A stretch of 43,870 bases of DNA, from the NCBI GenBank assembly GCA_902802105.1, contig CADCKR010000021.1, positions 1 to 43,870 of the forward strand, in the 5' to 3' direction. Positions 2,501 through 37,975 of the stretch are shown piece after piece. The stretch is from an uncultured Ruminococcus sp. GTDB lineage: Bacteria > Bacillota > Clostridia > Oscillospirales > Acutalibacteraceae. Position 1 is the first letter of the stretch; each line of letters begins with the position of its first letter. The position numbers and the translations under genes were made by a program. The notes under the pieces were generated by a model. The model saw nothing but the letters and a program-made list of their open reading frames with translations. It was not told where the DNA came from and did not search any database.

Positions 2501-4299
2501 CGGATGAGACCGATACTAATCCGGGTAAGATCAAGCAGATCGAGTGGCTGAAACCCGAAGAGGGAGCTCCTGATGATCTCTCAACAGTAGATAGAGAATA
2601 TCTTGACCATGTTCCGAGTGATATAAGAAATACGTCAGTTACCAAGGTAAAGGTTGTAAAGACCGGCACCTACTACTGGGAAGAGAAAACACCGCCCGCA
2701 GGTTATAAGCTCAACGAAGAAAAGCTGACCTTCGAGGTCAAGGATGACGGCGTTTACTACTACGATGAGAATAACAATCTTGTCAAGGTAGACAGCTCAC
2801 ATCCGATGGTATTTATCAACGAAAAGCAGGATGAGCCTGAGGGAGAAGTTATCCTCACCAAGACCGCCAAAGAAAAGGTCGGCACAACGGATATCGGAGA
2901 TGTACTTGCAGACGCAAAATTCAAGCTTGTTGATGTAAATAACCCTTCAAGCGAGATAAAGTTCAGTCTGACAGCGAAGGCAAGCGAAGATGTATCCGGC
3001 AAGCAGACAAATGTCTATACAGTCAGCAGCGGCGGCACATATAATGTTGCATCGAACTCAACATGGCTTGAGACCGGCGAGGACGGCAAGCTGCATATCA
3101 AGGGACTTCCCGTAGGCGACTACTATCTTGAGGAGCAGAAGGCTCCGAACGGCTATTCACATCTGGATAATGCAAGCGGCGTTCCGCAGAAGAGAAAGGT
3201 TTACTTCTCAGTCGGCGCAAACAGAGCCGTTAAGGAAATATCCTGCTCCGATGAGATGGAGCCTGCTTACATCAAGCTGTATGAGCATATCAGCGAGAAG
3301 CGCAGCGAGTGGGGCGACCCGACGTTCGTATTCAAGATCAAGCAGACAGGCTATTATGATTACACCGATCCGGCAGATCCGGCGATCATCTCTACAAGCG
3401 GCAAGGAGATACTTGTTGCACTGACAGTTGATGATAACGACAATATTAAAAATGTTGTCAAGTGGTTCGGTGCGGACGGTTCAACTCCGACAAAGTTTGG
3501 TGATGGATTTGACGATCCTATCAACACGGATTATAATAACTGGCTTGTTGAAGGCACGACAGACCTTGCGGATTATCAGGGTATCTTCAATATCGACAGC
3601 AAGGGACGCATCCGAGTAGAGCCCGGTTCCTACGAGATAACAAGACTGCCTGTATCGAGGTACAAGTTCGTTACTAACGGCAAGACAGCCGCTTATCCGA
3701 ACGATGCCGAGCCGACAGATTGGACTGGGTACACCGACCCCGCCACCAGTGAACCGTCTGAGCTGATGAAGCTTGAAGTTCCGAAGGGCAACACCGTTGA
3801 CGTACACTACTACGACACAGTGGATTACTACGACAAGTTCACGCAGGTAGACGAGAATATCAACAAGTTCTACAAGCGCGGTGACGGCACAAACGGAACC
3901 AAACTCGGCACAAACTACACCGTCAAGGGTATCCGCATAGAAGATTACCATCAGAAGGGTAAAGGCGTTGACGGCGACACTGATGTCGATGACAAGATGA
4001 CCGTTAATGTTTCCGATCTCACGATCTACAAGATCATGTCTGACGGTTCTGAGGCTGCAATGACACCGGAAGAAAAAGCTGCACTTACAAACTTCAATAT
4101 CACCTATAACTATGCTGAAGGGGATAAACAGGAGTTTGGCGGCGCATCTTCACCGGCTGTTGTTCCGAAGCAGTTCTCTTACAACAATAACAAGATAACC
4201 GTCACCGGCGCATCAACCTTCGCAAAGGGCGTTTACACGCTCAATGCAAGCTATAACGGCTGGAGTACAAAGTTCGATATCGTCTTCTTGACAGCTTAG
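2497..4299 (+). pseudogene. Large surface/adhesin-like protein, fragment 3 (SpaA/Cna-B-like domains, C-terminus)
   Basis: This is the C-terminal piece of the surface protein. The true frame is open from about 2449; the GTG at 2497 is internal. It carries SpaA/Cna-B (prealbumin-like) modules: one ending in YYWEEKTPPAGY (about 2670-2710), one starting VILTKTAKEK with L-A-D-A-K-F-K-L-V-D (about 2847-2935) and ending DYYLEEQKAPNGY (about 3118-3156), and a longer divergent one (about 3255-3690). In this family the Lys near the start and the Glu of the L-E-E motif form a self-made isopeptide bond. The last 150 residues form another beta module. There is no LPXTG sorting signal, no C-terminal membrane helix and no dockerin, so anchoring is unknown. 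The gene ends in tandem stops TAG TAA (4297-4302), and a strong terminator follows. Confidence 0.75.
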
Positions 4300-19405: not shown

Positions 19406-19996
19406 ATGAAAAAGCTTACCAGACTTATATCATTTTTTGCAGCTGTTGCCGTTTCGGCAGTGATGCTTACCGCTTGTTCAGGCGGCGGCAGCAATACCGG
19501 CACTTCGACTGCGCCGATGCCTTGGGATATACAGACATCTCAGCAGCAGCCTTCAACAGTTGTGCAGCCTTCAACTGTAGTGCAGCCTTCAACTGTAGTG
19601 CAGCCTTCAACAGTTGTGCAGCCCTCAACGGTCACTCCTACAGGTAAGCAGAGCATCAGAGCCGCTCTTGAAGCCGATGTAGGTATCTCCGGCGTGGCAC
19701 AGATGTTTGCTCAGCAGTACGATACCGACGAACTGAAGATCACAGGTCAGTACAACGGCGAGGATTCACTTGTATTCTTTATGACACTCACCTCGTATGT
19801 TGACCCTAATTCTGAGGAAGTAAGAACAAACATTGCTTCTCTTGCAAATCAGTATGAATCTATGAGCCCGCAGATGGCTCAGACGATCACTCAGCTCGAA
19901 ACTCAGTACAATGTCCGTCCGTTTACGATGGAGTTCCGTCTCTGCAACTCTGACGGTTCTGTGCTTTATACAAGAATATACTCCGATCAGGGCTGA
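19406..19996 (+). CDS. Lipoprotein with tandem VQPST repeat and DUF4854-like domain
   Basis: A 196-residue lipoprotein of unknown function. Residues 1-23 form a signal peptide with lipobox M-L-T-A-C (Cys24). A Gly/Ser/Thr linker leads to five tandem 6-residue units (Q-P-S-T-V-V and variants), encoded by near-identical 18-bp repeats at about 19546-19633; this is a spacer between membrane and domain. The C-terminal part (about 85-196) alternates helices and strands and resembles small DUF4854-type domains of Clostridial lipoproteins; that name is from memory. GGAGG is well placed before the ATG. It is monocistronic, between its own promoter and a strong terminator. Confidence 0.85.
   Translation: MKKLTRLISFFAAVAVSAVMLTACSGGGSNTGTSTAPMPWDIQTSQQQPSTVVQPSTVVQPSTVVQPSTVVQPSTVTPTGKQSIRAALEADVGISGVAQMFAQQYDTDELKITGQYNGEDSLVFFMTLTSYVDPNSEEVRTNIASLANQYESMSPQMAQTITQLETQYNVRPFTMEFRLCNSDGSVLYTRIYSDQG
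19546..19633 (+). repeat. Five 18-bp coding tandem repeats (VQPST units)
   Basis: Consecutive units of the type CAGCCTTCAACAGTTGTG encode Q-P-S-T-V-V. Units 1 and 4 are nearly identical, as are 2 and 3; the fifth is diverged and incomplete. Copy number may vary between strains by slippage. Confidence 0.9.
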
Positions 19997-25354: not shown

Positions 25355-26485
25355 TTATCCTTTATTTCTCCTGAAATACATATAGAGCTGACATTTTATC
25401 ATGCCGTTGTACAGCTTGCGGCGCTTATCGGCAGGACGTCCGAAGGTATCCTCAAAGCTGTCGTCGGGGCTTATTATGCTGTAGCTCCATCCGTCCCTCT
25501 GTATGAATTTGCTGCCCATTATTTTATAAAGCTCCCTTGCCTGCTGCATATCGAGCAGTCTTTCGCCGTATGGCGGGTTGCATATCACGGCAGCCCTTTC
25601 ATGTTCTGAGCTGAAATCCTTTATATCGCGCACCTGTGCGCTGATGCGGTTCTCAACGCCTGCTTTTCTTGCGTTTTCAAGAGTCAGCTCAACTGCGGCA
25701 GGGTCGATATCATATCCGTATGCCTGAAATTCAGCGTCCTTGTTTATGCTGTCCATAGCGCGTTCTCTTTCAATAGCCCATACGGAGGACGGCACTGCGC
25801 CCCATTTTTCTGCGGCAAAGCTCCTGCGCAGACCGGGCGCGATATTCATTGCTTTAAGTGCCGATTCTATAAGTATAGTACCCGAACCGCAGAAGGGGTC
25901 TATTACAGTGCTGAAATGGCGCACCCTTGAAAGGTCGGCCATAGCCGCAGCAAGAGTTTCTTTTATAGGTGCGGCTGCGGAATTTGCGCGATAGCCCCTT
26001 TTATGCAGTCCGGCTCCCGATGTGTCAAGAAGTATGCTGCATTTATCCTTGATGATAAGGAACTGTATCTGATGCAGGCTGCCTGTCTCTTCGAGCCATG
26101 ATGTGCCGTATTTTGTTCCGAGCCTTTTTGCGGCGGCCTTTTTGATTATTTTCTGGCAGTCCGGCACGCTTGAAAGCTTTGAGCTGACGCTGTGCCCCTT
26201 TACAGGGAATGCGTCCTTTTCGCCGACGAATTCCTCCCACGGCAGGCGGTACACGCCCTGAAACAGATCCTCAAAGCTGTAAACGGGAAATTCACCGAGG
26301 AGTATCTGTATTCTTTCGGCATAGCGTGAACAAAGGTTTGCTCTTGCCAATGCGGAAAAATCGCCCTCAAAAAGCACTCTGCCGTTTTCGGCTCTTACGT
26401 TTTCTATATCAAGTCTTTTAAGCTCATCGGCGCATAAGCCTTCAAGTCCCATAAGGCATGGTGCTGCAAACTGTATTTTTTTCAT
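25355..26485 (-). CDS. THUMP-domain class I RNA methyltransferase (RlmL/YpsC-like)
   Basis: A 376-residue SAM-dependent methyltransferase, probably acting on 23S rRNA guanine N2. The N-terminal ferredoxin-like and THUMP regions (about 1-160) handle RNA. The Rossmann domain has D-P-F-C-G-S-G-T (about 196-203) for SAM and I-C-N-P-P-Y-G-E-R (about 297-305), the N-P-P-Y motif of base N-methyltransferases. It corresponds to the N-terminal enzyme of E. coli RlmL without the second (RlmK) half, as in Bacillus YpsC. The exact target is inferred. AGGAG lies before the ATG. First gene of the probable methyltransferase-dnaE operon; a family-2 repeat lies upstream. Confidence 0.88.
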   Translation of the reverse strand: MKKIQFAAPCLMGLEGLCADELKRLDIENVRAENGRVLFEGDFSALARANLCSRYAERIQILLGEFPVYSFEDLFQGVYRLPWEEFVGEKDAFPVKGHSVSSKLSSVPDCQKIIKKAAAKRLGTKYGTSWLEETGSLHQIQFLIIKDKCSILLDTSGAGLHKRGYRANSAAAPIKETLAAAMADLSRVRHFSTVIDPFCGSGTILIESALKAMNIAPGLRRSFAAEKWGAVPSSVWAIERERAMDSINKDAEFQAYGYDIDPAAVELTLENARKAGVENRISAQVRDIKDFSSEHERAAVICNPPYGERLLDMQQARELYKIMGSKFIQRDGWSYSIISPDDSFEDTFGRPADKRRKLYNGMIKCQLYMYFRRNKG

Positions 26486-26528
26486 TTTATCTACTCCTCA
26501 TTTTACTCACAAATGCATCAAAATTCAC

Positions 26529-26730
26529 CGGCGGCAAGCTGCCGCTCCCTTGTCCGCTCCGCTCGTTTACACTCGCTTTGTTCTGCTCATTCTGTAGTCA
26601 TCCCCGTAGAAGCTGGTGCATTCGCAGTGCTTTGCAAAAACCTCTTTTACAGACGCTGATTTATTCGCTCTGGCGGCACTGACTGCGGTATGCGTTGAAC
26701 AGGCTCTGTGCCGAATCGGGGGCGGCGGTG
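26529..26730 (-). repeat. GC-rich repeat, family 2, copy 2
   Basis: Read on the minus strand it contains AGCGTCTGTAAAAGAGG, CTGCGAATGCACC, CTTCTACGGGGATGACTACA and GAATGAGCAGAACAAAGCGA, matching copies 1 and 3. The end near 26530 has GGCGGCAAGCTGCCGC; the other end has GGGGGCGGCGGTG. It lies upstream of the RNA methyltransferase gene and could affect its leader or promoter. Confidence 0.75.
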
Positions 26731-26768
26731 ATGGTTTAATTTTATACTATACTATTGCAAAAATCAAG

Positions 26769-26966
26769 GCAATACCGCACAAAGATAGTGCCGCAGATGC
26801 GCCGTCAATTTTTTCGTCAGATTGTATAGAAATTTTGAAGGCATACTGACGTATGTCGAGAAATTAGGCATACTGACGTATGTCGAGAAATTTCTGTGCA
26901 AGATGACGGAAAAAGTGCAAGCAGATGTGGTGCTAAGCCGTTAGGCGGTCTTTGTGCGGTGTTGCC
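26769..26966. repeat. Long-inverted-repeat element (MITE-like, ~198 bp) with target-site duplication
   Basis: The two ends are inverted copies: GGCAATACCGCACAAAGA on the left and, reverse-complemented, GGCAACACCGCACAAAGA on the right. Pairing continues imperfectly inward (GCAGATG, TTTTTCGTCA, AGAAATTT), so the transcript could fold into one long hairpin. The flanks carry TCAAG on both sides (26764-26768 and 26967-26971), a likely 5-bp target duplication (4 bp if the element starts one base earlier). It abuts the rmuC stop codon and could act as that gene's terminator. It has no coding capacity. Confidence 0.8.
26840..26892. repeat. 27-bp tandem duplication at the apex of the long-inverted-repeat element
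   Basis: Two adjacent copies of a 27-bp unit beginning GGCATACTGACGTATGTCGA lie at 26840-26866 and 26867-26892. Each contains CATAC-TGAC-GTATG, a small hairpin. Confidence 0.9.
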
Positions 26967-28367
26967 TCAAGTATTACCCGCATCGAGCCGTTCTATGCCG
27001 CTGAGAGTACGGTTGATTTTTCTTGTGCGTGTGCCTACAAGCGCTTCAAGCCCTTCCTCGGCTTTGCGTATGCGGGACTGTGTATCTGTCAGTACCTTTT
27101 CAAAAGCGGCAAATTCCGTCTTGACGTCCGCAAGCACTGACCAGACCTCTCCGCTGCGCTTCTGTACTGCAAGGGTCTGGAATCCCATGCGCAGTGAATT
27201 GAGCATAGCTGCCATTGTTGACGGACCGGCAACATTTATCTTGTATGTGCGCTGCAAATCTTCAACAAGACCGCGCATATTAACGACCTCGGCATAAAGC
27301 CCTTCAACAGGCAGGAACATTATCGCAAACTGTGTGGTAGAGGGCGGCGCGATATATTTTGAGCTGATATCCTTTGCGCACTTGCGTACAGCATCCGCAA
27401 GCTCTTTGCGGCACTGTGCGATCAGTTCCCTGTCGGCTGACTCGTATGCATCCTGTAAGCGGCTGAATGTGTCGCCGTTGAATTTTGAATCTATCGGCAG
27501 GTATACGGTCTGACCTTCCTCAATGCCCGGAAGCTTTACGGCAAACTCGACACGGTTAGAGCTTTTGGGAACGGTGGCTACATTTTCATCATACTGCTCC
27601 GGCGTCAGTATTTCTTTCAGTATAGCTCCGAGCTGTACCTCGCCTAAGATGCCTCTTGTCTTTACGTTCGAGAGCACCTTTTTCAGGTCGCCTACGCCCT
27701 TGGCTACGTTCTGCATCTCACCAAGTCCCTTATATACCTGTTCGAGCCTTTCGCTGACGAGCCGGAACGATTCGTTCATCTTTGCTTCAAGGGTCTGCTG
27801 GAGCTTTTCGTCAACGGTTCCCCTTATCTGTTCAAGCTGCCTGGTGTTGTCCTCTCTTATGCCGCGCAGCTGTGTATCGACAGTTTCGCGTATTGCCTGA
27901 AGTCTTGTCTCAAGACCTGAATCAATGCTTGCAAAGCGTGTTTCAAGCTGCTTTAGCTGATTCGTTATGCTTCTGTCCATATCCGAGAGCTGTTTTTCTG
28001 TGCTTTTCTGCATCAGCGCTATCTGGTCGGTCTGAGAGCTGCCGATGACTGTGAGCTGGCTTTTCTGTGCGGCGAAAAGCTCTGCGGTGTGCCGTGACTG
28101 CTCTGCGGAAGAATGTGTCTGACTGCTTATGAGCTGTTCGCTGAGAAAACGCATATTGTCGTTCATGCTGCCCGAAAGCTCTCTTTTCATTTCCGACATA
28201 GCTTCGCGGCTTTCGTGCTTTTCATTTTCGATCTGCTCACATACCTCGGCCGAAAGCCTTTTTATATCATTGTCTGTAAGGCCTGAACCGCCCGGTCTTC
28301 CTTTGATGATAAGTATCAGCAGCAGTATGATGACCGCCGCCTGCATTATCAGTGATACTATTTCCAT
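26967..28367 (-). CDS. rmuC: RmuC-family DNA recombination protein
   Basis: A 466-residue membrane-anchored protein. An N-terminal hydrophobic helix (about 5-22) is followed by a long coiled coil (about 30-230) and then the RmuC nuclease-like domain (about 240-430). The domain carries K-T-R-G-I-L-G-E-V-Q-L, V-E-F-A-V-K-L-P-G and Y-L-P-I-D-S-K-F, the conserved P-I-D-S-K-F motif of this PD-(D/E)XK-related family. RmuC is thought to limit recombination at inverted repeats and DNA ends. The ATG at 28367 was chosen because the frame upstream (to 28439) reads unlike a protein N-terminus and contains the promoter. The stop TGA directly abuts the long-inverted-repeat element. Divergent from corA. Confidence 0.9.
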   Translation of the reverse strand: MEIVSLIMQAAVIILLLILIIKGRPGGSGLTDNDIKRLSAEVCEQIENEKHESREAMSEMKRELSGSMNDNMRFLSEQLISSQTHSSAEQSRHTAELFAAQKSQLTVIGSSQTDQIALMQKSTEKQLSDMDRSITNQLKQLETRFASIDSGLETRLQAIRETVDTQLRGIREDNTRQLEQIRGTVDEKLQQTLEAKMNESFRLVSERLEQVYKGLGEMQNVAKGVGDLKKVLSNVKTRGILGEVQLGAILKEILTPEQYDENVATVPKSSNRVEFAVKLPGIEEGQTVYLPIDSKFNGDTFSRLQDAYESADRELIAQCRKELADAVRKCAKDISSKYIAPPSTTQFAIMFLPVEGLYAEVVNMRGLVEDLQRTYKINVAGPSTMAAMLNSLRMGFQTLAVQKRSGEVWSVLADVKTEFAAFEKVLTDTQSRIRKAEEGLEALVGTRTRKINRTLSGIERLDAGNT

Positions 28368-28400
28368 TTGCTTGTCACTCGCTTTCCTGTATGTATGGAT

Positions 28401-28429
28401 ATTATACCACAGAGCTGTCAGGCAATCAA
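28401..28429 (-). promoter_or_regulatory. Predicted promoter of rmuC
   Basis: On the minus strand the -35 is TTGATT (28424-28429), the spacer 17 bp and the -10 TATAAT (28401-28406), about 34 bp before the chosen start. Confidence 0.7.
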
Positions 28430-28522
28430 TATAATGCATATCCTATGGGAAATATATAGGACAGCCGATCCGTGAAAATTGCATTCATTTGCTGTTTTTT
28501 GTGAAATTGCTGTCGAATTCAC

Positions 28523-28551
28523 TTGATTATTTGCACAAAAAATATTATAAT
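28523..28551 (+). promoter_or_regulatory. Predicted promoter of corA
   Basis: -35 TTGATT (28523-28528), 17-bp spacer, -10 TATAAT (28546-28551). The transcript would have a leader of about 140 nt before the corA ATG. Confidence 0.7.
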
Positions 28552-28595
28552 AACTATGTATCGTTAAAAATAAAACTATTGCGAGGTGGTCGGCA

Positions 28596-28739
28596 GTGAG
28601 TCCTGGTCCTGATATAAAACGAAAACAGCAGCGATTTACCGCAAACGGGACGTGCGGGCTGACCCGTGCGGCCTTTTTAAAGAAAAGAGGCGTCTGCAAT
28701 GATAAGCTACTACAAAACGATAAACGGAAAAATAGTTGA
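28596..28739 (+). CDS. Possible upstream ORF / leader peptide overlapping the corA start (47 aa)
   Basis: GTG 28596 is preceded by GAGGTGG at 6-7 nt, a better ribosome site than that of many genes here. The 47-codon frame reads through the leader terminator hairpin and overlaps the first 41 bases of corA in another frame. It is basic (start M-S-P-G-P-D-I-K-R-K) and has no recognised domain. It may be a leader peptide that couples translation to the hairpin, or chance. Treat as hypothetical. Confidence 0.3.
   Translation: MSPGPDIKRKQQRFTANGTCGLTRAAFLKKRGVCNDKLLQNDKRKNS
28639..28678 (+). terminator. Terminator-like hairpin inside the corA leader (possible attenuator)
   Basis: Stem CCGC + ACGGG (28639-28649) pairs with CCCGT + GCGG (28663-28671); CC and TTTTT follow. 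It lies after the corA promoter and before the corA ribosome site, so it would stop transcription ahead of the gene unless the leader refolds. No known metal riboswitch consensus (M-box, NiCo, yybP-ykoY) could be matched by eye. Confidence 0.6.
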
Positions 28740-29628
28740 GATAAGAGAATATGAACAGGGCTGCTGGGTAAACTGTATTGCTCCGGAGGATGATGAGGTG
28801 CAGTATCTGCTCGATACCTTCAAGATACCGCCTGAGCTTATGCGCTCCGCACTTGATGAGGAGGAGTCGTCGCATATCGACAGTGAGGACGGCACCACGC
28901 TGATAATCATTGATGCTCCAGTGGTCGAGAAGGTGAACCGCAACATTACCTATTCCACAATGCCTATTGCAATAATGATAACGGATAATAATGTTATAAC
29001 TATCGCTCTTGACGAGAACCCGGTGCTCAGTGAATTTTCTGAGGGAGTAGTCAAGAATGTAATAACCGGATACAAGACCCATTTTGTCCTGCATATCATG
29101 CTGAGGATGGCAACGAAGTATTTGCAGTACCTGAAGCAGATAGACAAGATAAACAACCGCATAGAGCGTGAACTGAGACGTTCGGCGCAGAATAAGGAGC
29201 TTCATCAGCTGCTCGATATCGAAAAGTCGCTTGTGTATTTTTCTTCATCGCTCAAGGCAGACGAACTGACGCTTGAAAAAATAATGCGCGGCAGATATAT
29301 CAAGCTTTATGACGAGGATCAGGATCTGCTTGAGGATGTGCTTATCGAGATAAAGCAGGCTGTGGATATGGCGGCTATACATCTGAACATCCTTACAGGT
29401 ACGATGGATGTGTTCGCGTCCATTATCTCAAACAACCTTAACGTAATAATGAAAATACAGGCTTCTCTGACGCTGCTGGTATCCGTTCCTACGGTAATAT
29501 CGGGCTTCTACGGCATGAACATAGTAACAGGCCTGCCGATAGACAATTATTGGTGGTTCCCGGTACTGCTTTCGGGTATTCTTATGCTTGTAATGTATAT
29601 AATATTAAAGAAAAAGGGAATGTTCTGA
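28699..29628 (+). CDS. corA: CorA-family Mg2+/metal ion channel
   Basis: A 309-residue divalent-cation channel of the CorA family (Mg2+, possibly Co2+ or Ni2+). A large N-terminal cytosolic domain (about 1-240) ends in a long helix. Two C-terminal transmembrane helices follow, the first ending in the family signature Y-G-M-N-I (about 272-276), which forms the selectivity loop. The last residues are basic (K-K-K-G-M-F), as expected for the cytosolic tail. The ribosome site is AAGAGG. Expression probably depends on the leader with its terminator hairpin. It is the first gene of a long plus-strand run; the fusion gene starts 45 bp later with no terminator between. Confidence 0.92.
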   Translation: MISYYKTINGKIVEIREYEQGCWVNCIAPEDDEVQYLLDTFKIPPELMRSALDEEESSHIDSEDGTTLIIIDAPVVEKVNRNITYSTMPIAIMITDNNVITIALDENPVLSEFSEGVVKNVITGYKTHFVLHIMLRMATKYLQYLKQIDKINNRIERELRRSAQNKELHQLLDIEKSLVYFSSSLKADELTLEKIMRGRYIKLYDEDQDLLEDVLIEIKQAVDMAAIHLNILTGTMDVFASIISNNLNVIMKIQASLTLLVSVPTVISGFYGMNIVTGLPIDNYWWFPVLLSGILMLVMYIILKKKGMF

Positions 29629-29673
29629 CAGATCGAATGAGGGCTTATCCTTAACTGCGAGAGGTGTATTGAA

Positions 29674-31443
29674 GTGAATGAAGAAAAACTTTTTCATATA
29701 GGAATAACAAGAGAACAGGGCGCAGGGTATGCTATACTTCCCGGAGATCCGGGCAGAGTGGAGCTTATCGCGCAGTACCTTGACGAGCCGGAGAAGCTGG
29801 CCTCAAACAGAGAGTTCACATCGTGGGCGGGCAGGCTGTGCGGCGAAAGGGTGATAGTCCTTTCAACAGGCATAGGCGGACCGTCGGCGGCTATCGCTCT
29901 TGAAGAGCTGTGCGAAGCAGGACTTCGGGCAGCTATAAGGACAGGCACCTGCGGAGGGATAAGCGAGGGAGTTATACCCGGCGATATCATAGTGCCGACC
30001 GCTGCTGTAAGGATGGAGGGCACATCGAGGGAGTATGCTCCGCTTGAATTTCCGGCCGCGGCTGATTTCGGGATGGTAAAGGCTCTTGCCGAAGCTGCCG
30101 AAAAAAACGGTTTCCGTGTCCATACGGGTATAATACAGAGCAAGGATTCCTTCTACGGGCAGCATTCGCCTGAGATCATGCCTGTTGAATACAAGCTCAG
30201 AAATAAGTGGAGCGCATGGAAAAGGCTTGGCGTGCTTGCTTCCGAAATGGAAACGGCGGCGCTGCTCACCGTAGCTTCTGCAAGAGGCATCAGGATGGGC
30301 TGTGTGCTCCATGCTTTGTGGAATCAGGAGAGAAAGAGCAAGGGCTATGAGGACAGCGATGACTTTGACCTGACGGCGGCCATAAGGACGGCTGTTGATG
30401 CGATGAAAACGATAATCACGGCTGATAAGCATAAGCACAGTGCAAAGGCAGCTAATGCAGCTCCGGTGCAGAAGAAAAAGATGATAGCTGTAGTGGGGCC
30501 TACGGCATCGGGCAAAACCGACCTTGCCATAAAGCTTGCAAAAAAATATGACGGTGAGATCGTTTCCGCCGATTCGATGCAGATATATAAGGGAATGGAG
30601 ATCGCAAGCGCGAAGCCGACAGAGGAGGAAATGCAGGGCATACCGCATCACCTTATGAGCTTCATCTCACCGAGCGACACCTTTTCTGTATCGGACTATG
30701 TAAAGCTTGCTTCGCAGGCGATAGATGATATCATATCAAGAGGAAAGATGCCGATACTGTGCGGAGGTTCCGGGCTGTATATACGTTCGCTGATAGACAA
30801 CATCACCTTTGCTCCGGACGTTCCGGATGAGCAGCTTCGTGAGGAGCTGAACGCAAGATATGAGAGCGAGGGCGGCGAGGCGCTGCTCAGGGAGCTTGCC
30901 GAGTTTGATCCGGAATCTGCTGCGAAGCTTTCACCCAATGACGGCAAGAGGATAATACGTGCTATTGAGATATACCGTTCTACCGGCATAACCATGAGCG
31001 AGCACATTTCGCTCTCAAAGCTTGAACCTTCTCCCTATGACGTTACTGCGATAGGCCTTATCTTCGCAGACAGGCAGCACCTTTACGACAGGATAAACAA
31101 TCGTGTTGACGAGATGCTGAAAAGAGGCCTTGTTGAGGAGGCAAAGAATTTTTATTCTTCGGAGAAGAGCGTTACTTCGTCCGCAGCCATAGGGTATAAG
31201 GAACTCAGACCATACCTTGAAGGAAGGATAACTCTTGAAGCTGCTGCGGAAAAGCTGAAAATGGAATCGCGCAGATATGCAAAGAGACAGATCACCTGGT
31301 TCAGGCGTGATGAATACATCAGCTGGATCGAGGTAGACAAATGTGACGATGTGCTGAGTGAAGCGGAAAGGATAATCGAACAGCACGATAAGGCGGAAGA
31401 AAAGAAGGAGCAGGAGGATGGAAAAGCAAACACCGATCGATAA
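29674..31443 (+). CDS. miaA: Fusion: nucleoside phosphorylase (uridine phosphorylase-like) + tRNA dimethylallyltransferase MiaA
   Basis: A 589-residue single reading frame with two enzymes. Residues 1-248 are a PNP/UDP-type nucleoside phosphorylase: G-D-P-G-R-V-E (24-30, phosphate loop), S-T-G-I-G-G-P-S (64-71), R-T-G-T-C-G-G (89-95) and E-M-E-T (191-194, ribose binding). A linker rich in Lys, His and Ala (about 249-268) leads to a full MiaA (269 to about 570): P-loop G-P-T-A-S-G-K-T (275-282), S-A-D-S-M-Q-I-Y (298-305), G-G-S-G-L-Y and R-Y-A-K-R-Q-I-T-W-F. MiaA adds a dimethylallyl group to A37 of tRNAs reading UNN codons. The start is GTG 29674 with AGAGGTG upstream. Both halves keep their motifs, so both may be active. 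The 3' end overlaps the HlyD-like gene by 26 bp. Confidence 0.92.
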   Translation: MNEEKLFHIGITREQGAGYAILPGDPGRVELIAQYLDEPEKLASNREFTSWAGRLCGERVIVLSTGIGGPSAAIALEELCEAGLRAAIRTGTCGGISEGVIPGDIIVPTAAVRMEGTSREYAPLEFPAAADFGMVKALAEAAEKNGFRVHTGIIQSKDSFYGQHSPEIMPVEYKLRNKWSAWKRLGVLASEMETAALLTVASARGIRMGCVLHALWNQERKSKGYEDSDDFDLTAAIRTAVDAMKTIITADKHKHSAKAANAAPVQKKKMIAVVGPTASGKTDLAIKLAKKYDGEIVSADSMQIYKGMEIASAKPTEEEMQGIPHHLMSFISPSDTFSVSDYVKLASQAIDDIISRGKMPILCGGSGLYIRSLIDNITFAPDVPDEQLREELNARYESEGGEALLRELAEFDPESAAKLSPNDGKRIIRAIEIYRSTGITMSEHISLSKLEPSPYDVTAIGLIFADRQHLYDRINNRVDEMLKRGLVEEAKNFYSSEKSVTSSAAIGYKELRPYLEGRITLEAAAEKLKMESRRYAKRQITWFRRDEYISWIEVDKCDDVLSEAERIIEQHDKAEEKKEQEDGKANTDR

Positions 31444-32746
31444 GCCTGCGGTAATGAAAAACGGTATACTGATAGTGCTGACGATCCTTATAATCACCTA
31501 TGTGATATATCTTGTATACGTTACGAATTTCAAGCAGGTAAAGACAATAAGTGCAAAGGAAACAATAGCCTATGACGCAATAAACTGCGAGGGCTTTATC
31601 ATACATGACGAAACGCTGATAAGCTATGACGGCAGCGGCGTCATATCCTATACTGTGGGAGACGGTGACAAGGTGTCGGTCAACGAGCCGGTCGCAGGCG
31701 TGTTTGACAGCGTGGATTCGGCAGGAACGAAGCAGGAAGCCGAAAGACTGAAAAAGAAGATAGATTCCCTGAAGCTTTTGCAGTCAAATTCCGATACCAT
31801 AACAAAAACACCGGACGTTCTTGACAAGAATATCCGTTCATCACTCATAAAGGCAAATTCTCAGGTAAACATGGGGTGGATATCCGAAGCCGGACTTTGC
31901 GCCGATGATGTGCTGTATTACATCAACGAAAGACAGATCGTTACGGGCAGGGCTGCGGATTTTACCGAAAAGATAAACCAGCTTGAAGCAAAGTACAAAG
32001 AGCTTGAAGCAAAGCTTAAAAAGGGCAGGAAATCGAAGGATATAAGATCTCCTGCGACCGGATATTTCGCATCGGGTGCAGACGGCTACGAAAATCTGTT
32101 CAAGGTGGCTGATCTTGAAAATATCATGCCCGATGACATGAAGCCCGAAAATATAAAGCCCGCTGCCGTAGGTGAAAATGTTATCGGCAAGACGATAGAG
32201 GGCGTGTATTGGTATGCTGCCTGTCCGGTGAGCGCCGAGAACGCTATCAAGGTAAAGAATGCCGGAACGCTCAAAATGGATATACCTATGGTGTCCAGCG
32301 ACAAGATAGATGTTGAGCTTGTATCTATAAATCAGAAAACAAAGTCGTCCGATGCGGTAGTCATACTCAGAGGGACCTACATGAATGATGAGATGGCTTC
32401 GCTGAGAAAGGGCAGCTTTTCTATCATACTCCGTACCTATGACGGGATATATATACCCAAGTCGGCAGTGCACAACGGTGAATTCACGCGCACTGTTGAG
32501 GACAAGGACGGAAATGAAAAAAAGGAGACAAAGACCCTCACGGGAGCTTATGTCAGGATCGGCAATGAGGTCGCTTTCAGAGAGATCGTACCGCTGTATT
32601 CCGGTGAGAACTTTGTTATAAGCAAGCTTGTGCCCAAGCCGGAGGAATACTTCTCAAAGAAGGTCGGAGTGGTGCAGGTATATGACGAAATAATCGTGGA
32701 GGGAGCTAATCTGTATGACGGAAAGATCATTAACCGTGCCGGCTGA
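31418..32746 (+). CDS. HlyD-like membrane-anchored protein of the ylm/division cluster
   Basis: A 442-residue protein with one N-terminal membrane helix (about 15-36) and an outside region. That region begins with a barrel-sandwich (biotinyl-lipoyl-like) half (about 50-100: G-F-I-I-H-D-E-T-L-I, V-G-D-G-D-K-V-S-V-N-E-P-V-A). A coiled coil follows (about 105-215), then the second sandwich half and a beta domain, as in HlyD-type adaptors of efflux or secretion systems. No ABC transporter or outer-membrane partner is nearby, as expected for a Gram-positive. Its place between miaA and ylmE suggests a role in envelope assembly or division; this is inference. It overlaps miaA by 26 bp and ylmE by 32 bp, so translation is coupled. 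The ribosome site is AAGGAG. Confidence 0.75.
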   Translation: MEKQTPIDKPAVMKNGILIVLTILIITYVIYLVYVTNFKQVKTISAKETIAYDAINCEGFIIHDETLISYDGSGVISYTVGDGDKVSVNEPVAGVFDSVDSAGTKQEAERLKKKIDSLKLLQSNSDTITKTPDVLDKNIRSSLIKANSQVNMGWISEAGLCADDVLYYINERQIVTGRAADFTEKINQLEAKYKELEAKLKKGRKSKDIRSPATGYFASGADGYENLFKVADLENIMPDDMKPENIKPAAVGENVIGKTIEGVYWYAACPVSAENAIKVKNAGTLKMDIPMVSSDKIDVELVSINQKTKSSDAVVILRGTYMNDEMASLRKGSFSIILRTYDGIYIPKSAVHNGEFTRTVEDKDGNEKKETKTLTGAYVRIGNEVAFREIVPLYSGENFVISKLVPKPEEYFSKKVGVVQVYDEIIVEGANLYDGKIINRAG

Positions 32747-33449
32747 GAAGCTTGAGTATGTAAGGAGCAGCTATCTTGATATCACATCAAGGATCGCAAG
32801 GGCTGCCGAGGCGTCCGGAAGGAAGGCTGAGGACATAACGCTTCTGGCGGCTACCAAGACCGTAGAGCCGGAAGTGATAAACTATGCTGTTTCGCTTGGC
32901 CTGAGATATATCGGCGAAAACAAGGTGCAGGAGCTTTTGTCAAAGTATGAATACTACGACCTTGAACACTGCGACCTGCAGTTCATCGGTCATTTGCAGA
33001 CAAATAAGGTGCGTCAGATCGTCGGCAAGGTTTCTATGATACAGTCTGTTGACAGTTTTAAGCTTGCGGGCGAGATATCGAAGCAGTCGGCAAAGAACGG
33101 AATAACTACCGATGTGCTGATAGAGGTGAATATTGGCAGAGAAGAAAATAAATCGGGCGTTATGCCGGAGGAACTTGAAGAACTGATAGCTCAGAGTGCC
33201 GCTCTTGACAGCATCAGGATAAGAGGATTGATGGCTGTGCCGCCTATTTGCGACAAAAAAGCCGAAATTTGTAATTTTTTTGATAAGATGCATCATTTAT
33301 TTATTGACATTTCAGACAAAACATTAGATAATGTAAGTATGGACTTCCTTTCAATGGGAATGTCTGACGATTTTGAGGAAGCGATCCTTTCAGGCGCAAA
33401 TATGGTGAGAGTCGGTTCAAGGCTCTTCGGCGCAAGAATATACAGATAA
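32715..33449 (+). CDS. ylmE: YggS/YlmE-family PLP homeostasis protein
   Basis: A 244-residue, single-domain TIM-barrel protein that binds pyridoxal phosphate and balances vitamin B6 and amino-acid pools; no catalytic reaction is established. The PLP Lys is in L-L-A-A-T-K-T-V (about residue 48). I-G-E-N-K-V-Q-E, F-I-G-H-L-Q-T-N-K and S-M-G-M-S-D-D-F are family motifs, and V-R-V-G-S-R-L-F-G closes the barrel. It overlaps the end of the HlyD-like gene; GGGAG lies before the ATG. In Firmicutes ylmE stands directly before sepF, as here. Confidence 0.93.
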   Translation: MTERSLTVPAEKLEYVRSSYLDITSRIARAAEASGRKAEDITLLAATKTVEPEVINYAVSLGLRYIGENKVQELLSKYEYYDLEHCDLQFIGHLQTNKVRQIVGKVSMIQSVDSFKLAGEISKQSAKNGITTDVLIEVNIGREENKSGVMPEELEELIAQSAALDSIRIRGLMAVPPICDKKAEICNFFDKMHHLFIDISDKTLDNVSMDFLSMGMSDDFEEAILSGANMVRVGSRLFGARIYR

Positions 33450-33465
33450 CGGAGGATAATATATT

Positions 33466-33939
33466 ATGGCAGGATTTATGGGAAAATTCAAGAATATGCT
33501 GAAACAGCCCGATGAGGATATGGATTACGAGGAGTATTACAGCTCTGAGGAGGAGCAGGAGCCGCACACTGCCGATCCGGCTCCGGCGGATGATTATGAG
33601 CCGATGGAGGAGGCTCCGGCGGAGCCTGCTGATAATGTTATCAGCTTCAAGGACAATACAAAGGTGCAGTTCGTGCTCTTCAAGCCTGAGACCTTTGACA
33701 AGGACGTAACTGCTATGGCTGATGAGTTTATAAAGAGAAACACTGTTATCCTTAATATGGAGCAGACAAACAAGGACGTCGGCAAGAGGATAATCGACTT
33801 CCTCAGCGGTGTTGCCTATGCGCACAACGGCAAGATCAGCCGTGTGGCAGAGGATACCTACATCGTGATGCCGAGCAATGTCAGACTTTCCGGTGAGGAC
33901 GTAATGGACGAGGTGGAGAGCGACAACATTTACTTCTGA
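33466..33939 (+). CDS. sepF: Cell division protein SepF
   Basis: A 157-residue FtsZ-interacting division protein. The N-terminus (M-A-G-F-M-G-K-F-K-N) is the membrane-binding amphipathic helix. A long acidic Pro/Glu linker (about 15-57) leads to the SepF domain (about 65-145) with V-I-L-N-M-E-Q-T-N-K-D-V and R-I-I-D-F-L-S-G-V-A-Y-A, followed by I-V-M-P-S-N-V. SepF forms rings that bundle FtsZ filaments and tether them to the membrane. It lies 16 bp after ylmE with ACGGAGG upstream, in the same operon. Confidence 0.95.
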   Translation: MAGFMGKFKNMLKQPDEDMDYEEYYSSEEEQEPHTADPAPADDYEPMEEAPAEPADNVISFKDNTKVQFVLFKPETFDKDVTAMADEFIKRNTVILNMEQTNKDVGKRIIDFLSGVAYAHNGKISRVAEDTYIVMPSNVRLSGEDVMDEVESDNIYF

Positions 33940-33969
33940 TATTAACTATGAATAGAAGGGAATATGTGT

Positions 33970-35085
33970 ATGCTTACAGTTGAAGAAATAGTAAACGTCA
34001 GCTTCAGAAGAGCAGGACTGAGCGGCTATAAGATCGAAGACGTTGATGATTTCGTTGACGGCGTTATCGACAAGGTAAAAGAGATGCAGCTCACCAACAG
34101 GGAGCTGCAGGCAAGGGTAGAGCAGCTCAATGAGAAGGTAATGAGGTATGAGCAGCAGGCTTCGAGCGTTCAGGAGGCAATAATCACTGCCGATATGGCC
34201 GCAAAGAGGATAACGCATGATGCTGAGATACAGGCTGAGGCTATGCTGAACGATGCAAAGGTCAAGGCCGATTCAATGCTCAGGGATGCAGAAGAGGCGT
34301 CCTCACAGAAGATGCTTGATTCGGAGCTCAGGGCGCAGACCATACTTGACAATGCGCTTTCACGCTCAGCAAGCAGCATTGACGAGAACAACAGGATAAT
34401 AGAGCAGCAGAAGCAGCACATTATTCAGATACAGTCTGAGGTGACACGCTTCAGAGAGGCTCTTATTGATTCTTACAAGAATCATCTGAGGATCATCAAC
34501 TCTCTTCCCAAGGAGGAGGAGTTCAGACAGTATCAGGCAAATCTTGATGCGGCTTACCCGATGGAGACTCCCGTAACGTCCGATATGCTCGGACAGGAGA
34601 TAATGGATGATGCCGACAGAGCTGTAGAGCAGGCAAAGGCAGAAAGTCCGCAGATAACCGTAAGCGTTCTTGACGCCGACAAGGTAAAGGAGATCGCTGA
34701 GGAGATGCGCAACAGCAGCAAGGTCCAGGCCGAGCTTGAAAGTGCTCAGGAGGCTGAAAGAAGGATCCATGAAATGGCTGACGTGAATGTCAGCGAGGAG
34801 CCTGCCGGGAATGCTGCTGACGAAAACAACGCTGACAATAATGATGAAAATGATGATACCGTCATACTGTTCAAGCAGGTAAGACCTGATCTTGTCGAAC
34901 AGCCCGACAGCAACGCCGATGAGATCATGGCTGCCGCTAACGCCGCAGCCGAAAAGCACGATCAGGAGCCGATGCCCACAAGCATAGACGAGATAGGCAA
35001 CGGTCTGATCTTCGGTACGGATGAAAGCGCCGCAGAAAACAGCGACAGCAAGCCTGCGGATGCAGACGAGTCAAAGAACAGCTGA
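33970..35085 (+). CDS. divIVA: DivIVA-domain cell division/polar growth protein
   Basis: A 371-residue DivIVA protein. The N-terminal domain (M-L-T-V-E-E-I-V-N-V-S-F-R-R and V-D-D-F-V-D-G-V) recognises negatively curved membrane at septa and poles. A coiled coil (about 30-200, with Ala/Glu/Asp heptads) drives oligomerisation. The C-terminal 170 residues are an acidic, Asn/Ala-rich, probably disordered extension, longer than in Bacillus (164 aa in total). ATG 33970 was preferred to 33964 since AAGGG lies 9 nt before it and the family starts M-L-T. sepF and divIVA are separated by only 30 bp; ylmG and ylmH, usually between them in Bacillus, are absent here. Confidence 0.9.
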   Translation: MLTVEEIVNVSFRRAGLSGYKIEDVDDFVDGVIDKVKEMQLTNRELQARVEQLNEKVMRYEQQASSVQEAIITADMAAKRITHDAEIQAEAMLNDAKVKADSMLRDAEEASSQKMLDSELRAQTILDNALSRSASSIDENNRIIEQQKQHIIQIQSEVTRFREALIDSYKNHLRIINSLPKEEEFRQYQANLDAAYPMETPVTSDMLGQEIMDDADRAVEQAKAESPQITVSVLDADKVKEIAEEMRNSSKVQAELESAQEAERRIHEMADVNVSEEPAGNAADENNADNNDENDDTVILFKQVRPDLVEQPDSNADEIMAAANAAAEKHDQEPMPTSIDEIGNGLIFGTDESAAENSDSKPADADESKNS

Positions 35086-35124
35086 ACCTGTTCTGCTTTT
35101 GCAGATAAAATAATAATTCCGCTG

Positions 35125-35160
35125 ATTTTATCCGGCACAATTTATGGTGTCGGATAAAAT
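35125..35160. terminator. Hairpin between divIVA and ileS
   Basis: A 14-bp stem with one wobble pair (35125-35138 with 35147-35160) and an 8-nt loop; the outer part of the stem is A/T-rich and acts as its own A- and T-run. It may attenuate transcription into ileS. No T-box anticodon or AGGGUGG-type motif was seen. Confidence 0.5.
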
Positions 35161-35206
35161 TGGCTTGTATAGATTTTCCATTTAAAAGAAAGAGGAGAGA
35201 AAAACA

Positions 35207-37975
35207 ATGCCGCAGGACTACAACAGCACGTTAAATCTGCCAAAGACAGACTTCCCTATGAGAGCCGGTCTTCCCAAATCGGAGCCGGAAACTCTCAGAC
35301 GCTGGGAGGAAGAAAAGGTATATGACAAGCTCATGGAGCACAACGAGGGCAAGCCCCTTTATGTTCTTCATGACGGACCTCCCTATGCAAACGGCAATAT
35401 CCATCTTGGCCACGCTATGAACAAGGTGCTGAAGGATATTATCGTAAAGTATAAGAATATGACAGGCTTCAAGTCGCCCTATGTTCCCGGCTGGGATACT
35501 CACGGCCTGCCTACAGAGCTTAAAGCAAGAAATAAAGCAGGCGTAGGAAATTCAACGTCTATTTCAGTCGTAGAGCTGAGAAAGATCTGCCGTGATTTCG
35601 CGCTTGGCTACATTGACGATCAGAGAACACAGTTCAAGCGTCTTGGCGCTGTCGGTGAGTGGGACAATCCGTATATCACCCTTACACACGACTATGAGGC
35701 AAAGCAGATCAGACTTTTCTCTGAGATGGCCTGCAAGGGCTACATTTACAGAGGCCTGAAGCCCGTTTACTGGTGCCCTGACTGCGAAACGGCTCTTGCA
35801 GAGGCTGAGATCGAATATGCCGAGGATCCCTGTCATTCCATCTATGTAAAGTTCAGGGTCACAGACGACCTTGGCAAGCTTTCGGCTCTCGGTGCAGATG
35901 TAAACAATACCTATTTTGTTATCTGGACGACCACTACATGGACTCTTCCGGCTAACGTGGCTATCTGCGTGGGTCCGAGATTCAACTACAGCGTTATCAA
36001 AAGCGGCAGTGAATATTATGTCATGGCAGAGGAGCTTTATGCTGCTGCTATGGAAGCTGCCGGCATTACAGATTATGAGGTGATCGGTACGATCAAGGGC
36101 GCAGAGCTTGAATACATGAAGACGGCTCATCCCTTCCTTGACCGCACATCACTTGTTATCGTCGGCAACCATGTTACTCTTGAAAGCGGTACCGGCTGCG
36201 TTCATACAGCTCCCGGTCACGGCGTTGACGACTATGAGGTATGCAGGAACTATAAGGAGCTTCCTATGGTAGTGCCGGTAGACGCTCACGGCAGACTGAC
36301 TGAGGAAGCAGGTATGTTTGCAGGTCTTATGACAGAGGATGCAAACAAGCCTATTGCAGAGTATCTTGAAAAAACAGGCGCACTTTTTGCACTAAAGAAG
36401 ATCATTCACCAGTATCCTCACTGCTGGAGATGCAAGAAGCCGGTTCTCTTCCGTGCTACAAAGCAGTGGTTCTGCTCTGTTGACGACTTCAAGGATGAAG
36501 CTATTGAGGCTATCAAGGGCATTGAGTGGATCCCCGGCTGGGGCGAGGACAGGATCACCTCAATGGTAAGAGAAAGAAAAGACTGGTGTATCTCACGTCA
36601 GAGAAAATGGGGTGTGCCTATCCCGATCTTCTTCTGCAAGGACTGCGGCGAGCCTGTTATTGACAGGAAGGCTATGGATGCGGTTGCCGATCTTTTCGCA
36701 AAGGAAGGCTCCGATGCATGGTATGCTAAGGATGCAAAGGATATAATCCCTGCCGATATTTCCTGCCCCAAGTGCGGCTGCAAGGAATTTGACAAGGAAA
36801 AGGATATTATGGACGTCTGGTTCGATTCTGGCGTTTCCCATGCTGCCGTATGCGGTGAAAGACCCTACCTCAAATGGCCGGCCGATCTTTATCTTGAAGG
36901 CGCCGACCAGTACAGAGGATGGTTCCAGTCGTCACTGCTGACAGCTATCGCCACAAGCGGTCAGGCTCCGTATAAGGCTGCCGTTACTCACGGATGGGTC
37001 ATTGATATGGAGGGCAGGAAGATGTCCAAGTCTCAGGGCAACGGTCTCAGCCCGCAGGCTATCATTGACCAGTACGGCGCTGATATCCTCAGACTCTGGG
37101 TAGCTTCAAGCGACTATCATTCAGATGTGCGCATTTCAAACGATATCCTGAAGCAGCTTTCAGAGGCATACAGGAAGATCAGGAATACAGCGCGTTACAT
37201 CCTTGGCAATATCAGCGATTTTGATCCCGACACTGACAAGGTGGATATGAGCGAGCTGCTTTCGATTGATAAGTGGGCGCTTTCAAAGCTTGATGCGCTG
37301 AATGTCAAGGTAAGAGACGGCTATGACAGGTTCGATTTCCATCAGGTATATCAGGCTATTCATAACTTCTGCGTTGTGGATATGTCCAACTTCTATTTCG
37401 ATGTACTTAAAGACAGACTTTATACAGAGAAAAAGGACGGCAAGCTCAGACGTGCAGCACAGACGACTATCTACATCATTCTTGACGCTATGGCAAGAAT
37501 GATCGCGCCTATACTTGCCTATACCTCAGACGAGATCTGGAGATTCATGCCGCACGACAAGAACGCAAACGCTGAAAATGTTCTCTTTAACGATATGCCC
37601 GAAAAGACAGGCGTTGAGCTGGACGAGAGCTTTGTCACTATGTGGGACAAGATCCATCAGACAAGGGACGAGGTAAAGAAGGCTCTTGAAGTCGAAGTCA
37701 AGAACAAGACTATCCGTGCATCTCTTGAAGCAAAGGTGACACTTTCAGCAGCAGGAGAGCAGTATGACTTCCTGAAGGAAGCTGAAAAGGAGCTTGCAGC
37801 ATCGTTCATCGTATCGGATGTGGAGATCGTAAAGACAGACGCTGAAGGCCTTGGCGTAAAGGTGGATCATGCAGAGGGCGAAAAGTGCGAGCGCTGCTGG
37901 GTATACAGCAAAACAGTAGGACAGAACCCTGAGCACAAGACTCTTTGTGCAAGGTGCGCAGCAGTTATAGGCTGA
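35207..37975 (+). CDS. ileS: Isoleucyl-tRNA synthetase
   Basis: A 922-residue class I synthetase charging tRNA(Ile). HIGH motif H-L-G-H at 66-69 within D-G-P-P-Y-A-N-G-N-I; KMSKS at about 605-609 in E-G-R-K-M-S-K-S-Q-G-N. The CP1 editing domain (about 190-390) has W-T-T-T-T-W-T-L-P-A-N and G-T-G-C-V-H-T-A-P-G-H-G. The C-terminal zinc finger has C-E-R-C-W (about 37885-37899) and C-A-R-C. The C-terminal finger and length fit the bacterial IleS1 type. AGAGGAG is before the ATG. It sits in the division/envelope cluster followed by lspA, as in many bacteria. Confidence 0.97.
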   Translation: MPQDYNSTLNLPKTDFPMRAGLPKSEPETLRRWEEEKVYDKLMEHNEGKPLYVLHDGPPYANGNIHLGHAMNKVLKDIIVKYKNMTGFKSPYVPGWDTHGLPTELKARNKAGVGNSTSISVVELRKICRDFALGYIDDQRTQFKRLGAVGEWDNPYITLTHDYEAKQIRLFSEMACKGYIYRGLKPVYWCPDCETALAEAEIEYAEDPCHSIYVKFRVTDDLGKLSALGADVNNTYFVIWTTTTWTLPANVAICVGPRFNYSVIKSGSEYYVMAEELYAAAMEAAGITDYEVIGTIKGAELEYMKTAHPFLDRTSLVIVGNHVTLESGTGCVHTAPGHGVDDYEVCRNYKELPMVVPVDAHGRLTEEAGMFAGLMTEDANKPIAEYLEKTGALFALKKIIHQYPHCWRCKKPVLFRATKQWFCSVDDFKDEAIEAIKGIEWIPGWGEDRITSMVRERKDWCISRQRKWGVPIPIFFCKDCGEPVIDRKAMDAVADLFAKEGSDAWYAKDAKDIIPADISCPKCGCKEFDKEKDIMDVWFDSGVSHAAVCGERPYLKWPADLYLEGADQYRGWFQSSLLTAIATSGQAPYKAAVTHGWVIDMEGRKMSKSQGNGLSPQAIIDQYGADILRLWVASSDYHSDVRISNDILKQLSEAYRKIRNTARYILGNISDFDPDTDKVDMSELLSIDKWALSKLDALNVKVRDGYDRFDFHQVYQAIHNFCVVDMSNFYFDVLKDRLYTEKKDGKLRRAAQTTIYIILDAMARMIAPILAYTSDEIWRFMPHDKNANAENVLFNDMPEKTGVELDESFVTMWDKIHQTRDEVKKALEVEVKNKTIRASLEAKVTLSAAGEQYDFLKEAEKELAASFIVSDVEIVKTDAEGLGVKVDHAEGEKCERCWVYSKTVGQNPEHKTLCARCAAVIG

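Follow-up and report, generated by a model that had tools for sequence, protein, structure and literature searches.

Does a single protein of an uncultured Ruminococcus really join a nucleoside phosphorylase to a tRNA-modifying enzyme and, if it does, how did the two come together and what might their union achieve? The question is raised by an open reading frame in a 43,870-nt stretch of DNA from an uncultured Ruminococcus sp. (assembly GCA_902802105.1, contig CADCKR010000021.1, positions 1 to 43,870; genome label G000). This whole stretch is referred to here as the window. The initial annotation had described the frame as a uridine-phosphorylase-like enzyme joined in frame to a full MiaA through a Lys/His/Ala linker. 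The features of the locus are:

28699..29628, + strand: corA-like gene, 45 nt upstream of the fusion gene (ORF list, family match)
29660..29664, + strand: AGAGG, a Shine-Dalgarno-like sequence 9 nt ahead of the GTG start (sequence reading)
29674..31443, + strand: udp::miaA fusion gene, 589 aa, GTG start (ORF list, Pfam, NCBIfam)
29692..30417, + strand: uridine phosphorylase (UP) half, TIGR01718 residues 7-248 (NCBIfam, structure, residue columns)
30418..30480, + strand: interdomain linker, 21 aa, residues 249-269
30481..31440, + strand: MiaA half with a C-terminal charged helix (Pfam, NCBIfam, AlphaFold model)
30496..30519, + strand: MiaA P-loop GPTASGKT, residues 275-282 (motif alignment)
31418..32746, + strand: HlyD_2-family gene, overlapping the 3' end of the fusion gene (ORF list, family match)

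Domain composition and family assignment

Pfam places PNP_UDP_1 at residues 19-231 (E 8e-44) and IPPT at residues 303-546 (E 3e-88) of the 589-aa frame. Among the NCBIfam models, the MiaA equivalog TIGR00174 is passed clearly (313.7 bits against a cut-off of 148.65) and the NP-I uridine phosphorylase equivalog TIGR01718 narrowly (284.9 against 280.3). The protein scores 219.8 bits with a second, narrower UP equivalog, NF008383, for which 262 would be needed, the DeoD models lie far below their cut-offs (NF004489, 113.5 against 230; TIGR00107, 84.8 against 232.25), and models for AMP nucleosidase and MTAN match far under theirs. With both equivalog cut-offs passed within one frame, the description of a UP-type phosphorylase joined in frame to a complete MiaA is upheld.

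The AlphaFold model of the fusion protein, based on an alignment that used 61 of 101 prepared rows, contains two well-formed domains (mean pLDDT 91.1, pTM 0.70), and its last UP helix (residues 234-261) continues into the linker. The first seven Foldseek matches to this model are chains of 3qpb, the UP of Streptococcus pyogenes, followed by the MiaA structure 3exa. The latter superposes with an rmsd of 9.9, which probably reflects a different position of a moving subdomain; by sequence, the MiaA half matches 2qgn at 7e-86. The tRNA (adenosine(37)-N6)-dimethylallyltransferase MiaA (TIGR00174; 2qgn/3exa) is matched over its full length, but in the fusion protein it has a UP in front of it. Scans of the DNA at the locus gave 5 promoter hits against 4.5 in shuffled sequences and 4 terminator hits against 2.5 (sd 1.6), and Rfam returned nothing above the gathering score in 26000-36500.

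Fused and separate udp-miaA pairs in the genus

In a survey of 64 genomes of the genus, the junction was read wherever both genes were present and fusions were counted by a stop scan. udp lies directly upstream of miaA, on the same strand, in 61 of the 64, and this adjacency holds down to about 58-60% identity to the halves of the window. The remaining three genomes were left unscored, G018 and G056 having no strong match to the pair and G051 a contig that ends inside udp. The pair forms one open frame in 15 of the 61 (G000, which is the genome of the window, G045, G005, G030, G033, G001, G021, G043, G013, G029, G020, G053, G055, G032 and G022, the last counted as fused though its contig ends inside miaA) and separate genes in 46. 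That the genomes are drafts could speak for an assembly or base-calling artefact, but 14 other species-level genomes also have an open frame across the junction, and their proteins are 69-89% identical in alignment to that of the window and carry different in-frame linkers. These genomes refute the artefact, to which we give practically no credence, and with it a sequence error near codon 250 is ruled out. The udp::miaA fusion is therefore real and is kept across its branch of the genus.

The unfused pairs share with the fusion their gene order, strand and two families (46/61 genomes); they differ from it in having at least one stop between the genes and a MiaA start of their own. In 30 of the 46 pairs this start, taken as the best-paired one near the P-loop, lies before the udp stop codon is complete, so that the genes overlap; it follows the stop by 10 nt or less in 12 and lies further away in 4. 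The two genes are in different frames in 40 pairs and in the same frame, with at least one stop between them, in six (G012, G036, G062, G061, G004 and G060). In G012 (locus L012) a single TGA is all that separates them. Together with L012, the loci L013 (G036), L014 (G062) and L015 (G061) were observed as same-frame pairs with one stop between the genes, each one stop short of a fusion. At three loci, L018 (G004), L025 (G019) and L137 (G002), udp aligns in two pieces beside an unbroken miaA, as a decaying gene or an assembly error would.

Long open-frame values returned automatically for some MiaA relatives were considered as further fusions and rejected, for stop-to-stop reading gave frames of 309 (G377), 328 (G633) and 313 (G319) codons. 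The automatic values can far exceed the frames actually read (919 against 309 in G377; 647 against two genes of 306 and 310 in G060) and are therefore unfit, on their own, for calling fusions. The open frame of 672 in G669 is taken as a chance open frame in GC-rich DNA, and no motif-bearing frame was found in the stretches of G427 and G530 examined as possible MiaA fusions.

Outside the genus, no match spanning UP and MiaA occurs among the best matches listed for 300 genomes of the family, which include four from the genus, and for 398 genomes of the phylum, in searches where a long-linker fusion would appear as two rows. The flanks of 86 loci were also inspected, six from the family search and 80 kept from a set of 112, the latter being the only route by which other phyla were sampled. 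In 62 of the 86, MiaA is present but the retrieved sequence contains no UP; less sequence was available at loci close to a contig end. At locus L034, miaA follows an ORF read as mutL. A search of the open-licence literature found no paper on a fusion of UP, or of a nucleoside phosphorylase, with MiaA; one review mentions each of the two enzymes a single time. Both families are well known; it is their pairing that appears to be new, and the original remark that the pairing was not known as a standard architecture agrees with what was seen in these genomes and papers.

The origin of the fusion was examined in two trees. The MiaA tree contains all 61 MiaA halves, including those of G002, G004 and G019, whereas the two-gene tree leaves out these three, with their udp in two pieces, and has 62 rows, 58 from the genus and four from the outgroup. 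In the MiaA tree the 15 fused rows fall on one side of a branch whose SH-aLRT of 85 does not reach the 95 that the tool marks with a star; they are adjoined by a split trio, G012, G044 and G019 (98). A quick search for the two-gene tree placed the split G012 and G044 among the fused rows with a support of only 46; when the fused rows were held together, the 62-row tree was 3.26 lnL better, with a p-AU of 0.574. No reversal to the split state was seen inside the fused clade of 15 rows. Since the fused rows form one clade, the fusion probably arose once, from an operon pair, and has been kept since. Separate, same-frame-with-stop and fused states all occur within one genus, which makes this a clear case of evolution from operon to fusion.

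The linker and the two halves

The Lys/His/Ala linker named in the initial annotation is present in the genome of the window (TADKHKHSAKAANAAPVQKKK), where it is short and charged, but it does not stand as a conserved feature. Across the 15 fused genomes the linkers range from 19 to 89 aa in 13 different lengths, and their sequences vary, the commonest residues being Lys, Ala, Pro, Glu, Val and Ser. Together they comprise 650 codons without a single in-frame stop, against 25 and 47 stops in the other two forward frames; the reverse-strand frames hold merely 4, 6 and 21, so the stop-free linkers are less striking than the forward frames imply. An open frame is the very criterion by which a genome was called fused; more telling is that no member of the clade has closed it despite 13 linker lengths. 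The linker evolves fast, with a dN/dS of 0.395-0.490 in the three of nine fused pairs for which dS is finite. Its freedom in length, together with the overlap of the unfused genes in 30 of 46 genomes, favours a tether and co-expression over a channel or a fixed contact between the halves.

We also looked for internal starts from which MiaA might be translated separately. In the window, just two possible start codons (ATG, GTG or TTG) occur in the 29 codons that precede the P-loop, an ATG at a distance of 5 codons and a GTG at 10, and both pair weakly with the anti-Shine-Dalgarno sequence (-1.9 and -2.3 kcal/mol, respectively). G021 and G055 have no such codon over that distance, and MiaA therefore seems dependent on the fusion there. 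The median pairing of the best candidate is -3.5 kcal/mol in the 15 fused genomes against -5.55 kcal/mol in the 46 split ones, the fused genomes having been scanned over more codons, a bias in their favour. Pairing is fair in G032 (-8.8 kcal/mol, 24 codons upstream), G013 (-6.9) and G020 (-5.8), so some free MiaA may be made in these three.

These observations bear on the idea of a neutral fusion, in which a stop was lost by chance, with neither good nor harm, and the halves act as before. It differs from the explanation that we favour below solely in denying an advantage, and the odds of the two overlap. We hold it to be possible, if doubtful: the sister G012 is just one same-frame TGA away from fusion, and the linkers resemble fast-evolving disordered spacers, but the frame has been kept in 15/15 rows of the clade through all 13 linker lengths and 650 stop-free codons. 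The apparent dependence of MiaA on the fusion in G021 and G055 also speaks against neutrality, although such dependence would equally retain a fusion that was born neutral.

For the UP half, residue columns, 15 defined on the enterobacterial enzyme and a further two on that of S. pyogenes, were read over 58 rows, 15 fused and 43 split, G002, G004 and G019 again being omitted. In the numbering of the window, His8, Gly24, Arg28, Arg46, Arg89, Phe160, Gln163, Glu191, Met192 and Glu193 are invariant in 58/58 rows, and Thr92, the Thr94 of the enterobacterial enzyme, is kept in 57/58. The window thus has every one of the enterobacterial residues His8, Gly26, Arg30, Arg48, Arg91, Thr94, Glu196, Met197 and Glu198, which we take to be those that bind phosphate and ribose, and the earlier claim that these motifs are intact is borne out. 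Their roles in UP are described, in part, in a paper that also says that the uracil-side Gln166 and Arg168 tell UP from PNP (PMC7271239). The column of Gln166 retains Gln in 58/58 rows. That of Arg168 has Ser in the window and in 33/58 rows, and Arg in 2/58; that of Arg223 has Gln in the window and in 57/58 rows, and Pro in one. Lys157 and His164, by which the rows resemble S. pyogenes UP, are found in 58/58, fused or split, while the Ile220 column varies and the Val221 column is Trp throughout (58/58). Since Phe160, Gln163, Lys157 and His164 are the same in fused and split rows, the fusion brought no change at these positions.

S. pyogenes UP, described in the title of its structure (PDB 3qpb) as a subclass of the NP-I superfamily, is both the best sequence match of the N-terminal half (E 3.6e-77) and its nearest solved structure (51% identity, TM 0.94 by target, rmsd 1.6 in Foldseek). 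The two enzymes have in common the phosphate and ribose residues, Lys157 and His164, and both are without the enterobacterial Arg168 and Arg223; at the positions of enterobacterial Gln166, Arg168 and Arg223 the S. pyogenes enzyme has Gln, Glu and Gln. They differ at position 216, which is Trp in the window and Gly in 3qpb, and in that S. pyogenes UP was solved as a stand-alone enzyme whereas the UP of the window carries a C-terminal MiaA. The shared Lys and His belong to the base-pocket loop, where they are presumably important in the S. pyogenes enzyme. Given this nearest solved relative and the shared Lys/His pair, the UP half is assigned by sequence and fold to the S. pyogenes-type UP subclass.

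This assignment weighs on the suggestion, made at the outset, that the UP half splits N6-prenyladenosine released by tRNA decay. In its favour are the union of the two domains and the absence of the two enterobacterial uracil-side arginines. Yet the protein passes the UP equivalog TIGR01718 and falls far below the DeoD models, Phe160, Gln163, Lys157 and His164 are present in 58/58 rows and common to S. pyogenes UP, and the genome encodes its own DeoD and MTAN elsewhere. We accordingly consider prenyladenosine splitting very improbable and do not retain it.

The MiaA half carries in the window the core motifs GPTASGKT (P-loop), DSMQIYKGM, IGYKE and RRYAKRQITWF, a set of our own choice. Among the fused rows, GPTASGKT is found in 14/15 (GPTATGKT in the other), DSMQIYKGM in 13/15 and IGYKE in 15/15. 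The Thr of GGTGLY is replaced by Ser in the window (residue 366, 30769-30771). Over the 15 fused genomes this column holds Ser in 9, Ala in 2 (G021 and G043) and Thr in 4; over the 43 split rows it holds Thr in 41 and Ser in the sisters G012 and G044, and Thr is kept in the four aligned PDB relatives. A change driven by the fusion was considered for this position and rejected, since Thr persists in four fused genomes and Ser also occurs in two split sisters. The Ala of G021 and G043 could change catalysis.

Substitution ratios (Nei-Gojobori) were calculated for nine fused and eight split pairs picked for closeness. The dN/dS of the UP half is 0.026-0.058 in the fused and 0.058-0.114 in the split pairs, and that of the MiaA half 0.024-0.050 and 0.069-0.111, respectively. 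dS is at least 1.0 for both halves in all nine fused pairs, so the ratios are rough, and the lower values of the fused pairs may be a mere effect of high dS. Judged by these ratios, both halves are under purifying selection, and this, like the fusion itself, its spread in one clade and the kept motifs, can be read from the sequences.

Genomic setting and a proposed role

The pair sits within a larger conserved block. Among the loci of the genus whose flank on the side in question exceeds 500 nt, a corA gene lies upstream in 26 of 27 and an hlyD-like gene downstream in 25 of 29; the adjacency of udp and miaA is therefore weak evidence of a functional link. Elsewhere in the window, an ORF at 19406-19996 (+) is lipoprotein-like and has a short repeated peptide, QPSTVV. 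Another, at 2497-4299 (+), is surface-protein-like with matches to SpaA prealbumin-like folds, and the two ORFs preceding it resemble parts of the same kind of protein.

In the genome of the window, which is 89.5% complete, neither a second MiaA nor a second UP was found; its two other PF01048 proteins are an MTAN (NF004079, 217.3 against 169) and a DeoD (TIGR00107, 289.9 against 232.25). No pyrimidine-nucleoside phosphorylase reaches the cut-off in any of the 64 genomes of the genus, G000 included, and a weak match present in 51 of the 64 is probably a TrpD relative. At this completeness the absences from G000 are not proof. The genes upp, cdd (cytidine deaminase) and miaB are above cut-off in G000.

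With a probability of roughly 75%, we propose that the protein is a bifunctional enzyme with two independent, tethered active sites in equal amounts, derived from a single fusion of the udp-miaA pair. In the ancestor of the clade, within this Ruminococcaceae genus, the two genes of a tightly packed pair would have come to share a reading frame, and the stop codon between them would have disappeared. By family membership, the N-terminal half is expected to convert uridine to uracil and ribose 1-phosphate by phosphorolysis, for pyrimidine salvage, and Upp would turn the uracil into UMP; the route would thus run from cytidine through uridine and uracil to UMP. On the same grounds, the C-terminal half would prenylate A37 of tRNA with DMAPP, to be followed by methylthiolation by MiaB. 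The active sites would work independently on a flexible tether, and the fusion would fix the ratio of UP to MiaA. Hexamers are the usual form of bacterial UPs, and if the UP half is hexameric, several MiaA modules would be displayed on one UP ring. Co-transcription, the oligomer and the independence of the sites are what we infer in this proposal.

A closer relation between the halves can be imagined, in which uridine, uracil, ribose 1-phosphate or phosphate at the UP half tunes MiaA and i6A37 follows nucleoside supply or RNA decay. The adjacency of the genes in 61/64 genomes of the genus, down to about 58-60% identity, the retention of the fusion in all 15 rows of its clade and the single copy of either enzyme found in the genome of the window are in keeping with such regulatory coupling. 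A linker of 19-89 aa that is unconserved and evolves fast (0.395-0.490 in 3/9 pairs) is hard to reconcile with a fixed contact, however, and the wider synteny may explain the adjacency, which leaves the coupling improbable. Slightly more speculative still is a six-armed hub, a hexameric UP ring that would sense the pyrimidine-nucleoside or phosphate state and adjust the prenylation of tRNA A37 by MiaA; if it were true, nucleotide salvage would be directly and physically linked to the decoding of UNN codons. The modest reading favoured here, of equal dosage, a tether and perhaps a hexameric hub, is enough.

In this branch of a genus of uncultured gut bacteria, then, a salvage enzyme and a tRNA modifier are carried on one chain, and the genome of the window yielded a second copy of neither. 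If the halves had no effect on one another, the protein would be an architectural oddity, and one easily misannotated wherever a protein is named after one half alone. An influence of the salvage half on the modifying half, if there were one, would tie nucleoside supply to tRNA decoding.
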